This document shows, in pieces, positions 40,523 to 50,637 of a stretch of DNA of 64,000 nt. The notes beneath the pieces are model-generated. The model had not been told where the DNA came from. It was given only the letters and a program-made list of their open reading frames with translations, and did not search any database. The DNA comes from Armatimonadota bacterium (GTDB taxonomy: Bacteria > Armatimonadota > Fimbriimonadia > Fimbriimonadales > Fimbriimonadaceae), in the NCBI GenBank assembly GCA_018268315.1, contig JAFDWU010000001.1, forward strand, positions 838,324-902,323. The letters are read 5' to 3'. The first letter of the stretch is position 1, and every line of letters begins with the position of its first letter. A program made the translations under genes and the position numbers.

Positions 40523-40951
40523 CTAGTGTAACCGTTCGTACACCGTTGGATCACGTTCTAAAAACTCGTTTACAAAAATTGGAATACTCACTGCCTTCCT
40601 TTTTTCGCGGCTCATTGTAACGTGCCAGGTGTAGCCGGTGGTCACCACTTTGCCGTGATTCAGTACTTCGTACTTGAACTGTATGGACGCCCGGCGCTTC
40701 TCCGCAAGCCAGATCCGCACCACCACGTCATCGTCATACTTCACCTCGCCGCGATACTCAGCGTGAGCCTCCACCACCGGCAGCATGATCCCCATTTCCT
40801 CAATCGACTTGTAAGTGACCCCTCGATCCCGCAGCCATGCGCCGCGGGCGACCTCGAACCAGTAAAAATAGTTCGCGTAGTAGGCATGGCCCATCTGGTC
40901 GGTCTCGCCGTACCGAACCCGGATCGTTGTTTCCGTTACTGCTTCGATCAT
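40523..40951 (-). CDS. Hotdog-fold acyl-CoA thioesterase (YbgC/FcbC type)
   Basis: A 142-residue hotdog thioesterase. Seen: VRYGETDQMGHAYYANYFYWFEVARGAWL, with the catalytic Asp in ETDQMGH and the Y-x-x-W-x-E/F-x-x-R helix (the motif is split here to its core TDQMGHAYYANYF). Substrate is likely a short acyl-CoA or an acyl-ACP; Tol-Pal-linked YbgC is the nearest well-known group but no tol genes are here. It follows the big GH18-GT2 gene by seven bases on the same strand. Confidence 0.9.
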   Translation of the reverse strand: MIEAVTETTIRVRYGETDQMGHAYYANYFYWFEVARGAWLRDRGVTYKSIEEMGIMLPVVEAHAEYRGEVKYDDDVVVRIWLAEKRRASIQFKYEVLNHGKVVTTGYTWHVTMSREKRKAVSIPIFVNEFLERDPTVYERLH

Positions 40952-40958
40952 CGGAAGG

Positions 40959-43900
40959 TTAAGTTTGACTGATTCGTACCGAGGCCTTTCGGTCCAGCTT
41001 GCCCCAGCCTTGGCGAACGCCCGCCAGCGCCATCAGCAGCGAGCGATAGATCACGGCGTACATAAGCTGGCGATAGAAGAAACGCTGCACCAGCAACGTC
41101 CACAATCCGCCACTCTTCAGGCGGTCCATCTTGAATGCGATCCAAGCGGTTAGATACTCGATGACGAAAAAGAGCCCGTACAGCTCCAGCACTTGGCGCA
41201 GATTGCTCGTGGCGGTTGCGTAGTTGTCGTACTCGCTGGGATGGTAGTGATGGGTGTACCAAGTGGAGGCAAAGCCCGCCACGCTTACGATCATCTGAAG
41301 GTCGATCAGCGGCGCAATCGCTTGGAACCCAATCTGGAACACCCAAAGGGCAGGTAATGCCAGCCGTCCAAAGTATCCGTGCTTCCCAACCGACCGTCGG
41401 TGCTTCCACAGGCATTGCAGGGTTCCATAAGCCCAGCGGAATCGCTGCTTGAAGAATGTCTTTACGGTATCAGGGGCTTCCGTGTGGGCCTTGGCGTCCG
41501 GCTCAGTTTCAAGGCGATACCCAGCTTCGCGTAATCGCCAAGTGAGGTCCATGTCTTCCGCTAGCGTATCGCTGGAGTAACCACCCACCGCCAGCACGGC
41601 TTCCCTGCGCCATGCCCCAATCGCGCCCGGCACGACTGTGATCGCATTCAAGAGCGCATAGGCTCGCCGGTCAAGGTTCTGGCTCGCGGTGTACTCAATG
41701 TGCTGCCACAAAGTGAGCAAGTTATGCACATTGCCGACCAGCACGTTTCCCGCCACCGAAGCAATCTGGGGGTCATTAAAGTGCGAAGCCATCAAGCCAA
41801 CGGCATCCGGGTTTAGCTGGGTGTCCGCGTCGATGCAGACCACCACATCCGCATCCGTCTCCTTGAGAGCGCGATTTAGCGCCGCTGCCTTGCCGGCATT
41901 CTCCTGATGGATAACCAGCACCCGCGGTTCTGCGGCAAACGCCTCACTCAGCACGCGAAGGGTCTCATCCTTGCTGCCATCGTCTACCACGACAACTTGG
42001 TGAACGGGAAATGTGGAAGCCAAGATGGACTGCACCGTGGCAACGATCACCTTCTCTTCGTTATAGGCGGCAATCAGGGCCGAAACCTTGCCTTCAAATG
42101 GCTCACGAACCGTGTCTTTGCGACGCCACTCATGGAGTGCCGCCAACGGCACAATGAGACCGATGCGAGCGATACCAAGTCCGATTGCGAACACAAACAA
42201 CACCGCCAGGAGAGCATCCGCATTGAACACAAAATCGAACACCAAACGGTCGAGCCCTACGAGCAACACATCCTTGCGCGAGAGCAAGGGCATCACCCTG
42301 TCGCGATCCACCCCGACAAGTTCGGAAACCCCGACGAACCGATAGCCTTGTGCTCGCAGCTGGGGGACAATGATGTCCAAGACCTGTAGCGTTCGCGAAC
42401 GATCCTCGCCACCGCCATCGTGTAGCAGGATGACGTTCCCCTCTCCCCTTGCAACCTCCTGCATCACGATGCGCGCCATCAGCTCTGGGCTGCGCTCGTG
42501 GACTCTGCCTGCATCATCTTGATACTCCAGCAGCCAGTCCTGAGGATCAATGAGTTCACCAATGGTTAGGTAGCCAAGGCGAGCGGCAATCCGCACCGGC
42601 TCGACTTCCATAGGGCTTGTTGGCTCGGCATCGGCGTTGTAGGGCGGCCGGAAGAGGATCGTGCTGCGGCCAAGAATCGCTTGGATCGCTCGCTGAGACG
42701 TGTTAATTTCAAGTTCAGCGCGATCCGGCGAAATGAGCCCAAGGTTTGGATGGGAAAATGTGTGGCTTCCCACTTCATGGCCCTCCGCAACCATCCGTCT
42801 TACAAGTTCCGGCGACTGCTCGGCGTTCTTGCCAATGACGAAGAACGTGGCGGGGACGTCCAACTCCTTCAGTTTGTCCAGAATCGGTGCGGTGTAGGTT
42901 CCATCGGGGCCATCGTCGAAGGTCAGCGCGACGGTCTTGGGTTTGTAACCTGACCTCTTTATGACGATTGGCGAAGGAAAGACTGAGTACGACTCATCCA
43001 CTATCTCGCCATCGGTATCCACCTCGAGCGACCGCGTACCAGGCGCGGGATTCTGGGCGACTTCCATCACCTCGCCCTTGCCAGAAAAGTCGACTTCGTA
43101 AGGATAAGTCACTCGCTGCAAGACCGTCGCCGAGGGAATCTTGCCCAGTTTGTTGCGGTCATAGAACAGCCACATTGAGGGATCTTCCGAGCCCAATGCC
43201 CAAAGCGCGGTACCGCGAATGCCCGACGCCCAGCCAAGCCGCCACTGGTTGTAGGCAGAAGCCGCATCGGTCATCCAGACCTGATGGTTCACGCCCTGAT
43301 CGTCGTCGTACTCGAAATGAGGGTTGAGGGTCTCGGCGTCAAAGTCGATGACATCCTGAGGCGGCTCGCTATCGCGATATCCCTTTGCCGCGGCAATCGC
43401 TTCCTGGTAGGTGAGAGATTCGGCAGTTTTGGCGCCCTTCGCCCAATCGTAGCTGTAGTTGGCGATGCCCATCACCAGCTTGTGTTCAGGTATCTGCTGC
43501 TTCGCATCTTCCAGGTTTTGCTCAACCCAATCAATCGAGGCGATGGGACCCGGTTCATCCTCTTGGGCATGCTGGTCGTACAGCATCAGAGTCACCCAGT
43601 TGCACGCCTCCGCGATAGCTTTAAATGGCAGGGGGCTATCGGTTAGTTCCAGGGCCGCCGTCAGTCCAAGGTTCGAGCCGGTAAATTCCTTTTGAATCAC
43701 GCCAAGAAAGCTAGGAAGCACGGCGGCATCCTCTTTGTGGAGGTTCTCAAAGTCAATTTGAATTCCCTGGTAACGGTTCCTCAACAGCCATGTTCGCAGG
43801 TCCGACGCAATCTTTTTTTGAAGCTCCGGGTTTGACAGCAACTTGTGCGCCCGCTCAGGGTCAAACGCGCCCATCGACGCGTTATTGAGGATTGGCACGA

Positions 43901-44408
43901 TCCGAATCCCGTTCGCCCTAGCGATTTGGATTACTTCCACGTTATGGGGCGTCACCTCAGGGTCAAAGTCGCTCTGATCCAGTTCTCTTCCATCTGGCGA
44001 TAGGTGCAGCCACTCCGGGAGCAAATCGGTGATCTTGGAAGCGTTGGCCTCCAGCGAATGGAGCCCGGTTTCCTGCCAGGGCGCGTAATAAGCGGCAACA
44101 ATGGGTTCCCCTCGAGCACGAAGTGCAGTAGGGGGCTTCTCAGCGGCAATACGCTCCGCAAGCTGCGCTTTGGATTTTGCCAGCAGCACCTGCGCCTTTT
44201 CACTGAGCTTGCTTTGGGTGGTGGGAATAAAGCTGCGCCGCTTCGCTTCGGCATTTACACCCGGCAGCTGGGGAAGGAGCGGGGGAATGAGCACGCTTAC
44301 GGTGAACCCCGCGCCTAGTACCGCCGAGACGGCGATTGCCGCAAGAACACCCCTTGATAGGAGCTTCTGACGACGCCCTTTGGGGTCAAAGAAGATGGGT
44401 TTGCTCAC
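40959..44408 (-). CDS. GH18-like / polysaccharide deacetylase / family 2 glycosyltransferase fusion
   Basis: A 1149-residue membrane protein with three enzyme modules. Residues 20-45: membrane anchor. Residues 100-425: GH18-type barrel, with catalytic-site RYQGIQIDFEN (D219, E221) and AYYAPWQE. Residues 490-700: NodB deacetylase with VALTFDDGPDG (D498, D499), SHTFSHP (H549, H553), FRPPYNAD and VILLHDGGGED. Residues 712-755: membrane segments. Residues 775-1010: GT2 with SALIAAYNEE, VVVDDGSKDE, CIDADTQLN, EDMDLTWRLREAGY and QRFRWAYGTLQ, followed by more membrane segments. This is PgaB- and PgaC-like chemistry in one chain, so it probably makes and trims a beta-1,4/1,6 N-acetylglucosamine-type polymer. 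GTG start, with TAATTA six bases upstream. Confidence 0.9.
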   Translation of the reverse strand: MSKPIFFDPKGRRQKLLSRGVLAAIAVSAVLGAGFTVSVLIPPLLPQLPGVNAEAKRRSFIPTTQSKLSEKAQVLLAKSKAQLAERIAAEKPPTALRARGEPIVAAYYAPWQETGLHSLEANASKITDLLPEWLHLSPDGRELDQSDFDPEVTPHNVEVIQIARANGIRIVPILNNASMGAFDPERAHKLLSNPELQKKIASDLRTWLLRNRYQGIQIDFENLHKEDAAVLPSFLGVIQKEFTGSNLGLTAALELTDSPLPFKAIAEACNWVTLMLYDQHAQEDEPGPIASIDWVEQNLEDAKQQIPEHKLVMGIANYSYDWAKGAKTAESLTYQEAIAAAKGYRDSEPPQDVIDFDAETLNPHFEYDDDQGVNHQVWMTDAASAYNQWRLGWASGIRGTALWALGSEDPSMWLFYDRNKLGKIPSATVLQRVTYPYEVDFSGKGEVMEVAQNPAPGTRSLEVDTDGEIVDESYSVFPSPIVIKRSGYKPKTVALTFDDGPDGTYTAPILDKLKELDVPATFFVIGKNAEQSPELVRRMVAEGHEVGSHTFSHPNLGLISPDRAELEINTSQRAIQAILGRSTILFRPPYNADAEPTSPMEVEPVRIAARLGYLTIGELIDPQDWLLEYQDDAGRVHERSPELMARIVMQEVARGEGNVILLHDGGGEDRSRTLQVLDIIVPQLRAQGYRFVGVSELVGVDRDRVMPLLSRKDVLLVGLDRLVFDFVFNADALLAVLFVFAIGLGIARIGLIVPLAALHEWRRKDTVREPFEGKVSALIAAYNEEKVIVATVQSILASTFPVHQVVVVDDGSKDETLRVLSEAFAAEPRVLVIHQENAGKAAALNRALKETDADVVVCIDADTQLNPDAVGLMASHFNDPQIASVAGNVLVGNVHNLLTLWQHIEYTASQNLDRRAYALLNAITVVPGAIGAWRREAVLAVGGYSSDTLAEDMDLTWRLREAGYRLETEPDAKAHTEAPDTVKTFFKQRFRWAYGTLQCLWKHRRSVGKHGYFGRLALPALWVFQIGFQAIAPLIDLQMIVSVAGFASTWYTHHYHPSEYDNYATATSNLRQVLELYGLFFVIEYLTAWIAFKMDRLKSGGLWTLLVQRFFYRQLMYAVIYRSLLMALAGVRQGWGKLDRKASVRISQT

Positions 44409-44768: not shown

Positions 44769-45923
44769 TTACGAGACATCGATGAACGGGAGATGAAGCC
44801 AAGTTGCCAGCAGGTAGAAGACGAACCCAGCTGCTGTCGAGCCGATCAGCACATGGATCATCCCACTGTTCCACAGCCTCGCGATCGGCGAAACGTGAAT
44901 GCGACGAGCAACCCTCGAGCGACTAATCAGCTCATCGGCAGCCTTGATTCCATTCTGAATTTGGCGCGACGTTGGTCGCTTAGTGGTCACGAACTGTTGC
45001 GCCATTGCCCCTAACGGACGCCAGGTGAACAGGGTGAACAAGATTGCGATCATGATATCGGCATCATTTGCCTTCTCGATGTGCCCACTGAGTTGGGTTG
45101 CAATCCAACTTACCGGCTCCAGGCTGAAAGCGATTGCGAAGAAGATGCTGACCGCCACCGCCAGGTTGGTGCCGCAGCGCGGATGAACGCGGGGCATGCG
45201 CCGCACCGATTCAACGGTAAGCGGCTGCCCGCGCTCCACCGCATGGACAACCATATGCTCCGCGGCGTGGGTTCCTGAGAGCGGCATAAGCTGGAAACTG
45301 ATGGCAAAAAGCGCAACGGAGACCAGATTGGAAATTGCATTGACTGCGCCTTCCTTCGCACCTTGGTGCATTGCAAGCTGGGCGGCTTGATCGCCAAGAA
45401 TTGAGCACACGAGCAGAACGCTGGCCAGGGTTGCCCCGGTGGCTATCAAAGCGAGTTTGCTGGCGCCGCCGCTAGAGATTCCATCGGTCAAATACACGCC
45501 GAACGGGGTTGCCATGCCACCGATTAACTTTGGCGCCATGCGCTCTGGCGGCTTGGGCACGAGGTCGGCGGGAGTAATGACGCCAACATAGCGGCCATCA
45601 TCATCGGCGACGACCAACTGGGCAATGCCTTGATCCGCGAACTGTCTAAGCGCCTCAGCGCCGGAAACATAAGGGGCAATCCGAACCGCGGGAGAAGCGA
45701 TCGATTCCACCGGATCCTCTAAAGAGACCCCTTCCACGAGCGCCCTCAGAAACTCAGTTTGAGTTACAAGGCCAACAACCTCGTGAGATCCTTCGTGCAC
45801 CACTACCACGAAACCGGCAGCCCGCAACATCGGCGCCACGGTCGATAGCGTGTCGCCTCGCAGAGCCGGCTCGGCCTGCGCCATTAAGTAACCAACTGGT
45901 TCAGAAAGCGGATTCGGGTTCAT
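44769..45923 (-). CDS. CBS-domain plus DUF1385 membrane protein
   Basis: A 384-residue protein. Residues 8-125 form a pair of CBS domains (VVVHEGSHEVVGLVTQTEFL and LVVADDDGRYVGVITPADLV), which commonly bind adenine nucleotides. Residues 130-375 match the DUF1385 membrane family: LIGGMATPFGVYLTDG in the place of the usual GGQAVxEGVMMR, then SGTHAAEHMVVHAVERGQPL and MPRVHPRCGTNLAVAVSI, the two strongly conserved H/E and HPRCGT marks. DUF1385 proteins have no settled function, though a metal-dependent role has been proposed. A CBS sensor fused to it suggests control by energy status. Not in an obvious operon. Confidence 0.82.
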   Translation of the reverse strand: MNPNPLSEPVGYLMAQAEPALRGDTLSTVAPMLRAAGFVVVVHEGSHEVVGLVTQTEFLRALVEGVSLEDPVESIASPAVRIAPYVSGAEALRQFADQGIAQLVVADDDGRYVGVITPADLVPKPPERMAPKLIGGMATPFGVYLTDGISSGGASKLALIATGATLASVLLVCSILGDQAAQLAMHQGAKEGAVNAISNLVSVALFAISFQLMPLSGTHAAEHMVVHAVERGQPLTVESVRRMPRVHPRCGTNLAVAVSIFFAIAFSLEPVSWIATQLSGHIEKANDADIMIAILFTLFTWRPLGAMAQQFVTTKRPTSRQIQNGIKAADELISRSRVARRIHVSPIARLWNSGMIHVLIGSTAAGFVFYLLATWLHLPFIDVS

Positions 45924-47435: not shown

Positions 47436-48911
47436 ATGAAATCTAAGCTATTTATACTTGCGGGCGTCCTTGCCCTTTCTTCGATTGCTTTCTCGCAGGA
47501 AAAGGAGCACGTGCAGCGTGGTCCCGTTCATGAAGAGGAAAACGTCCAACCGCTTTTCAAGTTGCCCTACGCCACCGCAGTGGGCCAGCCCGCGCTTACG
47601 GTGACCTACGGCAACTTCACCGCCTATCAGGTCAACGTAAATGCTGACCAACACGACATCGTCGGAGATGCCGCCAACGAGCCTTCGATTGCCGTCAATC
47701 CTCACAATCCGCTTGAAATGGCGATCGGCTGGAGGCAATTCGGCACGATTACCTCGGACTTTCGGCAAGGTGGGAACGCGTGGTCGAACGATGGTGGCCA
47801 TACCTGGCACAACATGCCTCCGCTCACAGATATCAACGGTCCTCAGTTCCGAAGCGACCCCGTTTTAACATTCGACAGTAACGGGCAGTTCTTCTATGAC
47901 AGCCTGATCATTCCGAACAACAACTTCATTTGCCAAGTTTGGAACTCCACGGATCATCAGAATTGGCTTGGCCCAGTCTATGCCTGGGGTGGCGACAAGT
48001 CTTGGATCGTTTCCGACAACATTCTGACGAGCGCAGGCAACGGCAACCTTTACCAGTGCTGGAGCGACTACGCAGGCACGGCGGGTGACAACACTTTCTC
48101 GCGATCGATCCCAAATGCGGCTGGGTTCCATGCAAGCTGGGAAACGCCGGTTCTACCGACGGGCGATCCGACATTTGGAACCGTAGACGTCGGCCCTGGT
48201 GGCGAAGTCTATGACGCGGGTATGCGCCCGGATCAGACGAATATGGTGATTACGCGGTCCGATGACGCGAAGAACAAGTTCTCGACCCCGGTTCACTTCG
48301 GCCCGAGTCACGATTTTGACATGGGCGGCATGCTGGTTACGACCAACATCAACCCGGTTGGCTTGGATGGACAGCTCTACTGCAAGGTGGCAGGCCCATT
48401 CTCGCCTTTCCACGGTACCGTTTACTGCCTTGCCTCGGTAGGCCTGTGGGATCAGTTCCGCAACGTTACCGATAACGTTCATGTAATGTTCGTGAAGTCG
48501 CCGGACGGCGGCCAGACATTCTCTCCGCCAGTGCGGGTTGATGCAGTCCCGCCATCGGGCCAGAACAACATCGCTTGGTTTGGAACGATGTCGGTCTCTC
48601 CTAATGGTCGAATTGACTGTGTTTACAACTCCACCGGTTACTCAAACGCTTTCGGTCCTTTGACAACGGTGACCCTGTACACCTTCTCGTTCGATAACGG
48701 AAACCACTGGGCGAATCCAATCCAGATAACTCCGGCGTGGAATCCCTCAATCGGCTGGCCAATCCAGCAGAAGATTGGCGACTACTACACGACCATTTCC
48801 GCACTGGACCACGTTGACCTGGCCTTCTCGGCTACATTCAGCGGCGGTCAGGATGTTTATTACATGCGGATCCCAGCCCCGCTTAGCCGCACCCCTCGAC
48901 AGGGCACCTAA
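47436..48911 (+). CDS. Secreted Asp-box (sialidase-like fold) protein, paralogue 1 of 3
   Basis: A 491-residue exported protein with signal MKSKLFILAGVLALSSIAFS. Three Asp boxes are seen (SNDGGHTW, SPDGGQTF, SFDNGNHW), typical of a six-bladed sialidase-like propeller, with the opening ANEPSIAVNPHNPLEMAIGW shared by many BNR proteins. No sialidase arginine triad is evident, so glycosidase activity is not claimed. It is the first of three tandem copies; it is nearer to copy 3 than to copy 2 (both end RIPAPLSRTPR). TATCCT and AGGGA lie upstream. Confidence 0.85.
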   Translation: MKSKLFILAGVLALSSIAFSQEKEHVQRGPVHEEENVQPLFKLPYATAVGQPALTVTYGNFTAYQVNVNADQHDIVGDAANEPSIAVNPHNPLEMAIGWRQFGTITSDFRQGGNAWSNDGGHTWHNMPPLTDINGPQFRSDPVLTFDSNGQFFYDSLIIPNNNFICQVWNSTDHQNWLGPVYAWGGDKSWIVSDNILTSAGNGNLYQCWSDYAGTAGDNTFSRSIPNAAGFHASWETPVLPTGDPTFGTVDVGPGGEVYDAGMRPDQTNMVITRSDDAKNKFSTPVHFGPSHDFDMGGMLVTTNINPVGLDGQLYCKVAGPFSPFHGTVYCLASVGLWDQFRNVTDNVHVMFVKSPDGGQTFSPPVRVDAVPPSGQNNIAWFGTMSVSPNGRIDCVYNSTGYSNAFGPLTTVTLYTFSFDNGNHWANPIQITPAWNPSIGWPIQQKIGDYYTTISALDHVDLAFSATFSGGQDVYYMRIPAPLSRTPRQGT

Positions 48912-49161: not shown

Positions 49162-50637
49162 TTGATGAAGTCAACGCTACTTATCTTTGCTGCCATTACC
49201 GCTCTGTCTTCCGTGGGCTTGGCGCAGAAAATAGAAAACCCAAATGAGAAGTTAATGCGGGAGCAGGAGGGGACTCAGTCTCTGCTTCAAGCCCAAACAA
49301 CCACCGGCCTTGGTCAACCTGCCCTCGTCGTGAGTTACGGCGGATTTCGGGCATATCAGGTCAATGTGACCCCTGGCCAGCAAGACACCATCGGAGACGC
49401 CGCCAACGAGCCATCGATCGCGGTAAATCCGCGCAATCCGTTGGCAATGGAGATTGGCTGGAGGCAGTTCGATAACGCGATTTCCGGTTTCCGCCAGGCC
49501 GGATGCGCTTGGTCAAGCGACGGCGGTCGCACTTGGCACAGCATGCCGCCTCTATCCGACAGCAATGAGCCCCAGTTTAGGAGCGATCCCGTGCTTACGT
49601 GTGACGCCAACGGCCACTTCTATTACGATAGCTACTTCTGCCAGCAGAACCGCTGCCAGATATGGAATACCGAAAACGACCCGAACTGGCTCGGCCCGAT
49701 CAACGCCTGGGGAGGAGATAAGTCCTGGCTGGCCTGCGATACAAACCCCAAGAGTCCCGGCTTTGGCAATCTCTATCAATGCTGGAGCGACTTTGAAAGC
49801 AGCTCCGGCCATTGCACGTTCTCCCGATCCGTTCCAAATGCGGTTGGAATTCACAGTGGTTGGGATATGCCGGTACCGCCTAGCGGCTTTCCTTCGTTTG
49901 GGATGGTTGCTGTAGGACCCAGCGGCGAAGTCTACGATGCCGGGATCAGTCCTGATTGGAGGAGCTGCGTCATCACGCGCTCCGACAACGCAAAGGATAA
50001 GTTTGCCATGCAAGTCAATTTCGGCCCGGGACACAACTTTGACCTAGGGGGAATGCTTGTCGCTCCAGAAGTCAACTCAGCTGGCCTTGCCGGGATGACT
50101 TATTGTCAGGTTGCGGGCCCGGCCTCTCCATTTCATGGAACGGTTTATTGCCTGGCGTCGGTCGGGCTTTGGGATCAGTCGGGAAAGCCGGATGCAACGA
50201 ATGTTCACACCATGTTTGTGAAATCGCTGGATGGCGGGCGCACGTTTACAGAGCCGGTTCGTGTTGATGCGCCTTCGCCATCGGGCCCGAACAACACGGC
50301 CTGGTTCGGCACGCTGTCCATTGCCCCGAATGGCCGCCTCGATGTGGTTTACAACTCCACCGGCTATTCCGATTCCTACGGTCCAAACACATGCGTGACG
50401 CTCTACACATATTCGCTGGATAGCGGTGACCACTGGTCGAAACCAGTTCGCCTCACTCCGGCTTGGGACCCCAGCCGCGGCTACCCTGGCGGGCAATCAA
50501 AAATCGGCGATTACTACACGACCTCCTCTGCCAACGACCATGTCGATCTGGCTTTCTCGGCAACGTTTAGCGGCGGGCAGGACGTGTATTACATGCGCAT
50601 CCCCGCACCGGCAAACTCAGCCCCGAAAAGCAACTAA
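49162..50637 (+). CDS. Secreted Asp-box protein, paralogue 2 of 3
   Basis: A 491-residue exported protein (signal MMKSTLLIFAAITALSSVGLAQ cut before Q), with the same fold as copies 1 and 3. Asp boxes: SSDGGRTW, SLDGGRTF, SLDSGDHW. It is the most diverged copy and is richer in cysteine (for example GCAWSSDG, TCDANGH, FCQQNRCQIW and LACDTN), where copies 1 and 3 have few; these may form disulphides. The C-terminus differs (RIPAPANSAPKSN). Function unknown. Confidence 0.85.
   Translation: MMKSTLLIFAAITALSSVGLAQKIENPNEKLMREQEGTQSLLQAQTTTGLGQPALVVSYGGFRAYQVNVTPGQQDTIGDAANEPSIAVNPRNPLAMEIGWRQFDNAISGFRQAGCAWSSDGGRTWHSMPPLSDSNEPQFRSDPVLTCDANGHFYYDSYFCQQNRCQIWNTENDPNWLGPINAWGGDKSWLACDTNPKSPGFGNLYQCWSDFESSSGHCTFSRSVPNAVGIHSGWDMPVPPSGFPSFGMVAVGPSGEVYDAGISPDWRSCVITRSDNAKDKFAMQVNFGPGHNFDLGGMLVAPEVNSAGLAGMTYCQVAGPASPFHGTVYCLASVGLWDQSGKPDATNVHTMFVKSLDGGRTFTEPVRVDAPSPSGPNNTAWFGTLSIAPNGRLDVVYNSTGYSDSYGPNTCVTLYTYSLDSGDHWSKPVRLTPAWDPSRGYPGGQSKIGDYYTTSSANDHVDLAFSATFSGGQDVYYMRIPAPANSAPKSN

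Follow-up and report, generated by a model that had tools for sequence, protein, structure and literature searches.

A widespread bacterial protein with GH18, NodB-type deacetylase, and GT2 modules in one chain: a probable GlcNAc-polymer synthase with its own finishing enzymes

Introduction

In Streptomyces, the MatB protein consists of a CE4 deacetylase domain outside the cell and a GT2 domain inside it, with a membrane helix between them (PMC5972031). Null mutants of matA or matB lose the PNAG antibody signal, which is also removed by dispersin B; calcofluor staining of beta-1,4 glycans is unaffected, and chitinase is without effect. The authors noted a conflict between the GT2 domain, which is PgaC-like, and the CE4 domain, which resembles beta-1,4 enzymes (PMC5972031). 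Proteins that add a GH18 module to this pair are already known from two genome papers, where they are listed in a table or a single line and their function was not studied: ZP_09465738 of Acetivibrio cellulolyticus (PMC3413522) and a protein of Sphingobacterium multivorum (PMC7065263). In a limited literature search, we found no functional study or biochemistry of any GH18-CE4-GT2 protein. Here, we analyze such a trimodular gene in a window of 64,000 nucleotides from a genome of the phylum Armatimonadota.

Results

Architecture and predicted topology

The original prediction placed a single 1149-residue chain with GH18, NodB deacetylase, and GT2 modules at positions 40959 to 44408. The open reading frame and three Pfam matches bear this out: GH18 at residues 104 to 406 (1.7e-14; 54.7 bits against a cutoff of 29.6), Polysacc_deac_1 at 489 to 592 (2.3e-36), and Glycos_transf_2 at 776 to 938, or to 995 (2.4e-31), the last two also above their curated cutoffs. 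The interval itself stands, but it is read on the minus strand, from a GTG codon at 44408 down to 40959 (Table 1). A plus-strand reading of the interval contains 18 stops and was ruled out.

Table 1. Coordinates in the window of the trimodular gene and its parts
Feature	Position	Strand	Basis or remark
Entire trimodular gene	40959..44408	-	1149 aa, GTG start
N-terminal anchor, aa 5-40: cytoplasmic VFxDPxGRR motif, then transmembrane helix 1	44289..44396	-	motif common to actinobacterial MatA-type gene
GH18 barrel, aa 100-425, SleL/YaaH/YdhD type	43134..44111	-	Pfam, solved-fold matches
GH18 motif QGIQIDFE, aa 214-221; D219 and E221 retained	43746..43769	-	alignment
Connector rich in beta strands between GH18 and CE4, aa 437-486	42951..43100	-	predicted model
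CE4/NodB deacetylase, aa 487-702; canonical order TFDDGP, HxxxH, RPPY, DxxDW, LHD	42303..42950	-	Pfam, motifs
Long helix including transmembrane segment 2, aa 711-763	42120..42278	-	predicted model, hydropathy
GT2 synthase, cytoplasmic, aa 773-1002; DDGS, DAD, AED, QRFRW	41403..42092	-	Pfam, motifs, tree
Three C-terminal membrane/interface helices, aa 1012-1129, hyaluronan-synthase-like	41022..41375	-	predicted model, fold matches

The originally given order of anchor, GH18, deacetylase, membrane part, GT2, and membrane part was confirmed. Hydropathy places transmembrane helix 1 (TM1) at about residues 15 to 48 behind a basic N terminus, TM2 at about 738 to 760, and more hydrophobic helices past the GT2 domain. 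Structure prediction, which had been proposed as a check, gave an AlphaFold2 model of the full chain (40 sequences) with a mean pLDDT of 89.2 and a pTM of 0.76, in which each module matches a solved fold: (i) residues 101 to 425 match a Chromobacterium chitinase (Z 35.7) and SleL (Z 34.2), (ii) the CE4 module matches the Bacillus cereus peptidoglycan deacetylase Bc1960 (Foldseek TMt 0.84), and (iii) residues 733 to 1149 match Chlorella virus hyaluronan synthase (Z 33.9; hyaluronan synthase matches range from Z 32 to 34). In a simple reading of the model, the N terminus would be inside, the GH18 and CE4 modules outside, and the GT2 module inside; the positive charges ahead of TM1 fit this N-in topology. 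Because E. coli PgaC likewise shows two hydrophobic helices ahead of its GT2 domain, the trimodular protein resembles a PgaC with processing enzymes between TM1 and TM2.

Distribution

The genome of origin (2.8 Mb, 9 contigs) carries one trimodular gene. A search for the same domain order, also proposed earlier as a check, was fruitful: matches at E <= 1e-60 occur in 48 of the phylum's 291 genomes and are mostly full length, with 41 to 52% identity, and the architecture is found in many other phyla. Its conservation in the 48 genomes argues that it is not a frame artifact, an assembly error, or the product of chance. A scan of named genomes, several of which are metagenome-assembled, yielded full-length relatives in Sphingomonas and other Alphaproteobacteria, Bacteroidota, Acidobacteria, Gemmatimonadetes, Verrucomicrobia, Bacillota, a cyanobacterium, Desulfobulbus, and Competibacteraceae. 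Further members occur in plasmid records of Deinococcus and Prevotella, a Chthonomonadaceae match (L104) is among the relatives, and no relatives were found in viral contigs. Judged by this recurrence, the trimodular enzyme is a real and widespread bacterial protein. Since its members are annotated in the records just as "glycosyltransferase," what appears to be a surface-polymer system spanning many phyla has been largely invisible.

With one exception, actinobacterial genomes in the named-genome scan encode CE4-GT2 proteins without GH18. The exception (L051), titled Arthrobacter sp. TPD3018, has a Sphingomonas-like trimodular gene, which may reflect a wrong name or contamination of the record.

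The GT2 module and kinship with MatB

The GT2 module has the features of a processive synthase, namely, DDGS, DxD, TED/AED, and QxxRW motifs with membrane helices on both flanks. D810, D862, E951, D952, and QxxRW are invariant among 30 homologues, as are the CE4 residues D498, D499, H549, H553, R587, D624, W625, and H663 among 30 homologues from the phylum, so that the deacetylase and GT2 motifs are intact as originally predicted; across about 75 homologues from many phyla, the key residues of both modules are essentially invariant. The best NCBIfam model for the GT2 domain is PgaC_IcaA (TIGR03937), with 197.9 bits (200.9 in the genome search) against an equivalog cutoff of 422.3, and the NodC equivalog model gives 102.6 bits against a cutoff of 550. 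In an IQ-TREE phylogeny of GT2 domains, for which the outside sequences are a small sample, trimodular and actinobacterial proteins form one group (support, 93), which is joined by a haloarchaeal protein and the PgaC/IcaA-like clade to the exclusion of NodC (support, 100).

The haloarchaeal sequence, the nearest outgroup to the trimodular clade, belongs to a pair of genes for a DUF2334 protein and a glycosyltransferase on a Halorussus plasmid (L133, 1119 to 3646), possibly an archaeal poly-GlcNAc system.

The CE4-GT2 half is about 36 to 42% identical to MatB-type proteins, and homology at 34 to 40% extends over about residues 490 to 1144. MatB, which is needed for PNAG in Streptomyces, is the nearest characterized relative. 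The trimodular protein has the CE4-TM-GT2 arrangement and the MatA-type anchor (see below) that mark the MatB type, with the anchor fused in the same chain and a GH18 module added. The poly-GlcNAc product originally proposed gains indirect support from this: the GT2 domain groups with PgaC, the CE4-GT2 half is MatB-like, and MatB is required for PNAG.

The deacetylase and the linkage of the product

All five CE4 motifs, with the metal-binding D-H-H and the catalytic base and acid, occur in the canonical order (TFDDGP at 496, H549/H553, R587, D624-W625, and H663-D664). E. coli PgaB is permuted, with the WHN motif (His55) ahead of TFDDG (Asp114/115) (residue roles are from PMC7112194). BLASTP with the CE4 module gives 2e-35 for NodB and 0.005 for PgaB across a 36-residue match. 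Given this motif order and this BLASTP preference, the deacetylase is of the ordinary, nonpermuted NodB/PgdA type; GHL13, the hydrolase that accompanies the permuted deacetylase in PgaB, is absent from both the protein and the genome. Therefore, the claim that the PgaB and PgaC activities are united in one protein stands as regards a synthase with processing enzymes but not as regards modules of the PgaB kind.

Characterized CE4 relatives (NodB and PgdA) and GH18 enzymes have beta-1,4 GlcNAc chains as substrates. The modules therefore conflict on linkage, the GT2 module pointing to beta-1,6 by way of PgaC and MatB and the relatives of the CE4 and GH18 modules pointing to beta-1,4, and the polymer may be of either kind. 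A chitin- or chitosan-like beta-1,4 glycan made by the GT2 module, the nascent chain of which would be deacetylated by CE4, serving as a chitin deacetylase, and cut by GH18, serving as a chitinase, is a real possibility, though we lean against it. The affinity of the CE4 module to NodB/PgdA agrees with such a product, as do the kinship of the GH18 module with SleL, YaaH, and chitinases and its being the sole GH18 in the genome. However, the GT2 domain sits with PgaC and away from NodC, and MatB has the same CE4 type, yet its product responded to dispersin B but not to chitinase (PMC5972031).

The GH18 module

The GH18 module is a TIM barrel that retains the catalytic Glu (E221) and the preceding Asp (D219) of the DxxDxDxE motif. 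These two residues and D498, D499, H549, and H553 of the deacetylase lie at the positions originally given, and the reported replacement of the two earlier Asp residues of the GH18 motif by Gln was confirmed (Q214 and Q217). The nearest solved chains, YdhD, YaaH/SleL, and the Chromobacterium chitinase, have the aligned motifs GVTIDFE, DIHFDFE, and GINVDFE, none of which contains the first two Asp residues. The Gln residues are thus a normal variant of the subfamily, and decay of the module as the reason for the Asp-to-Gln changes was ruled out. Position 217 is mostly Asn in relatives from the phylum (30 homologues), Gln being a local variant.

In several lineages outside the phylum, the catalytic Glu is replaced: by Asp in Mucilaginibacter; by Gln in Desulfobulbus, "Candidatus Udaeobacter," and one Verrucomicrobia metagenome-assembled genome; and by Pro or Ser in Methylobacterium, Rhizobium albus, and Limimaricola. 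These lineages keep the key CE4 and GT2 residues essentially unchanged, and their proteins (L057, L070, L071, L076, L077, L080, and L085) are candidates for naturally hydrolase-dead forms. Of the three modules, GH18 is the least conserved (41% versus 54% and 61% for the other two). Hydrolysis therefore seems not to be essential everywhere. One might go further and suppose that GH18 mainly holds or guides the carbohydrate, with hydrolysis unimportant; the loss of Glu beside retained CE4 and GT2 motifs, the rapid change of this module, and the actinobacterial relatives entirely without GH18 would suit such a role. We think this unlikely in view of the invariance of D219, E221, M275, Y277, D278, and W403 in 30 of 30 members from the phylum and the retention of E221 in most homologues outside it. 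We favor a GH18 that is active in most lineages.

A first, GT2-only tree placed the actinobacterial CE4-GT2 proteins next to members that have lost the GH18 Glu (support, 95). Decay and subsequent loss of GH18 in the actinobacterial line, as that tree would have it, was not upheld by a longer CE4-GT2 tree, in which the actinobacterial group falls outside all trimodular members; neither placement is supported by the longer tree, and for this reason, we make no claim about the direction of change between the forms.

A role in peptidoglycan remodeling, with GH18 and CE4 acting on cell wall strands, is very unlikely, because the GT2 module is a processive, hyaluronan-synthase-like enzyme with a channel in the model, and we know of no part played by such channel-type GT2 enzymes in peptidoglycan polymerization. 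The best solved CE4 and GH18 relatives do include peptidoglycan and spore cortex enzymes, and a link to peptidoglycan was suggested in the 2015 MatAB paper (PMC4391728), but later MatAB work found PNAG (PMC5972031).

The N-terminal anchor and MatA

Members of the trimodular family share, within their first 50 residues, a conserved P-V/I-F-x-D-P-x-G-R-R motif followed by TM1. An HMM of this region was run on 4,490 ORFs from 32 actinobacterial loci, which are taken as mat-like from their gene order and coupling and not from the S. lividans sequence. In 26 of the 32 loci, it matches the ORF that immediately precedes the CE4-GT2 gene (E values of 4e-13 to 5e-4). In one further locus, of Arthrobacter sp. 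SPG23 (L090, 5197 to 7914), anchor and CE4-GT2 are joined in a single ORF of 906 aa without GH18, possibly an intermediate form. Apart from these, no match among the 4,490 ORFs falls below 0.18. The remaining five loci have no anchor match, and the sequence available upstream is shorter than 80 bases in four of them and 1.1 kb in L112. In 16 loci, a start codon of the CE4-GT2 gene overlaps or directly adjoins the stop codon of the preceding ORF, a coupling of the kind reported for matA-matB (PMC4391728), and in L093 an Acyl_transf_3 gene lies directly downstream of the MatB-type gene, as was also reported for the mat cluster.

From the position of the motif directly upstream of MatB-type genes in 26 loci and its fusion in one, we infer that MatA looks like a separate, split-off form of the trimodular anchor. 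Two MatA-type upstream proteins that were scanned received no Pfam name, and a GH18 remnant was sought in MatA-type genes and not found. The motif was absent from the E. coli pga, rhizobial nod, L. plantarum, and Halorussus loci (best E value, 0.18). In the genome of origin, it clearly matches only the trimodular gene (1.4e-18; next, 0.02), and among 61 near relatives, convincing anchor matches are confined to genomes that carry a trimodular gene. As far as our limited literature search shows, both the link between anchor and MatA and the natural GH18-dead variants are new and testable.

Genome context

No other pga gene had been noted nearby, and the whole-genome search (GHL13, PgaA, PgaC-like, and GH18) extends this: no GHL13-type hydrolase, no PgaA above its cutoff, and no second GH18 were found, and the best PgaC-like match, below the cutoff, is the trimodular gene itself. 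No outer membrane exporter for the product was identified. When neighbors were clustered over 62 homologous loci, including a few near-duplicates, the trimodular gene recurred in all and the next family in 6. Because no partner gene recurs, the original description of the protein as self-contained is reasonable at the gene level, with the reservation that our crude ORF caller could miss short partner genes.

A gene for a YbgC/FadM-type acyl-CoA thioesterase (40523 to 40951, minus strand) starts 7 bases past the trimodular stop and may be cotranscribed with it; thioesterases were not recurrent neighbors in the 62 loci. The Halorussus GT2 gene is likewise followed by a thioesterase gene, which is probably a coincidence. 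The gene immediately upstream of the trimodular one (44769 to 45923, minus strand) encodes a CBS domain together with a DUF1385 membrane part. Farther away, a tandem pair of clearly similar 491-aa ORFs with signal-like N-terminal stretches (47436 to 48911 and 49162 to 50637, plus strand) is present, the first of which has weak BNR-repeat similarity.

Discussion

Proposed mechanism and significance

Our computations reveal the modules, their conserved catalytic residues, a fold and topology model, and kinship with MatB and the PgaC clade; as to substrate, product, order of steps, and GH18 role, we infer the following. The trimodular protein is probably an inner membrane, processive GlcNAc-polymer synthase equipped with enzymes that finish its product. 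A large extracytoplasmic part with GH18 and CE4 would lie between TM1, whose cytoplasmic side bears the VFxDPxGRR motif, and TM2, a layout equivalent to PgaC with processing enzymes inserted in its first extracytoplasmic loop. The GT2 domain would use UDP-GlcNAc in the cytoplasm and combine with TM2 and the C-terminal helices into a hyaluronan-synthase-like channel through which the chain passes outward. CE4 would then strip acetyl groups from some residues of the emerging chain. The GH18 family mechanism is substrate assisted and depends on an N-acetyl group where the chain is cut; GH18 may thus cut where residues stay acetylated, either setting chain length or freeing the chain. More tentatively, and with considerable doubt, we envisage widespread single-chain glycan factories in which GH18 cuts the emerging chain solely at residues that CE4 has not deacetylated, thereby coupling length to the degree of deacetylation, with a product that may be chitosan-like and with MatA as the split-off anchor.

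If the mechanism holds, a single gene could make a poly-GlcNAc glycan, move it across the membrane, deacetylate it, and trim it, and it could be useful for producing defined chitosan or PNAG oligomers. Natural variants in which GH18 is dead or absent offer a ready comparison for the role of the hydrolase, and the anchor link gives MatA, which has no recognized domain and is needed for Streptomyces PNAG, a testable role.

Comparison with known systems

The Acetivibrio (ZP_09465738) and Sphingobacterium multivorum proteins have the same three modules, a likeness taken from their listing and not from sequence. Bacillus SleL/YaaH and YdhD share the GH18 subfamily and its motif form, in which the last Asp and the Glu alone are retained, but are stand-alone cortex or sporulation enzymes with no synthase fused. 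E. coli PgaB and PgaC provide the same set of activities, with a GT2 domain in the same broad clade; however, PgaB has a permuted deacetylase and a GHL13 hydrolase where the trimodular protein has a canonical CE4 and a GH18, and PgaB works near the outer membrane whereas the trimodular protein is tied to the inner membrane. In the GT2-deacetylase fusions of divergent pga operons (PMC7112194), glycosyltransferase and deacetylase are fused as they are here, and pgaA and pgaD were not detected there, but the glycosyltransferase is N-terminal to a PgaB/IcaB-type deacetylase and there is no hydrolase, in contrast to the C-terminal GT2 and the GH18 module of the trimodular protein. Streptomyces MatB and MatA (SCO2962/SCO2963) differ in that GH18 is absent, anchor and enzyme are two genes, and an acyltransferase is encoded downstream (in L093, as reported for mat). 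Like the trimodular protein, they join a NodB-type CE4 to a PgaC-like GT2 through a membrane helix, and the CE4 of the MatB-type protein in the mat-like cluster L093 is 41% identical to the trimodular CE4.
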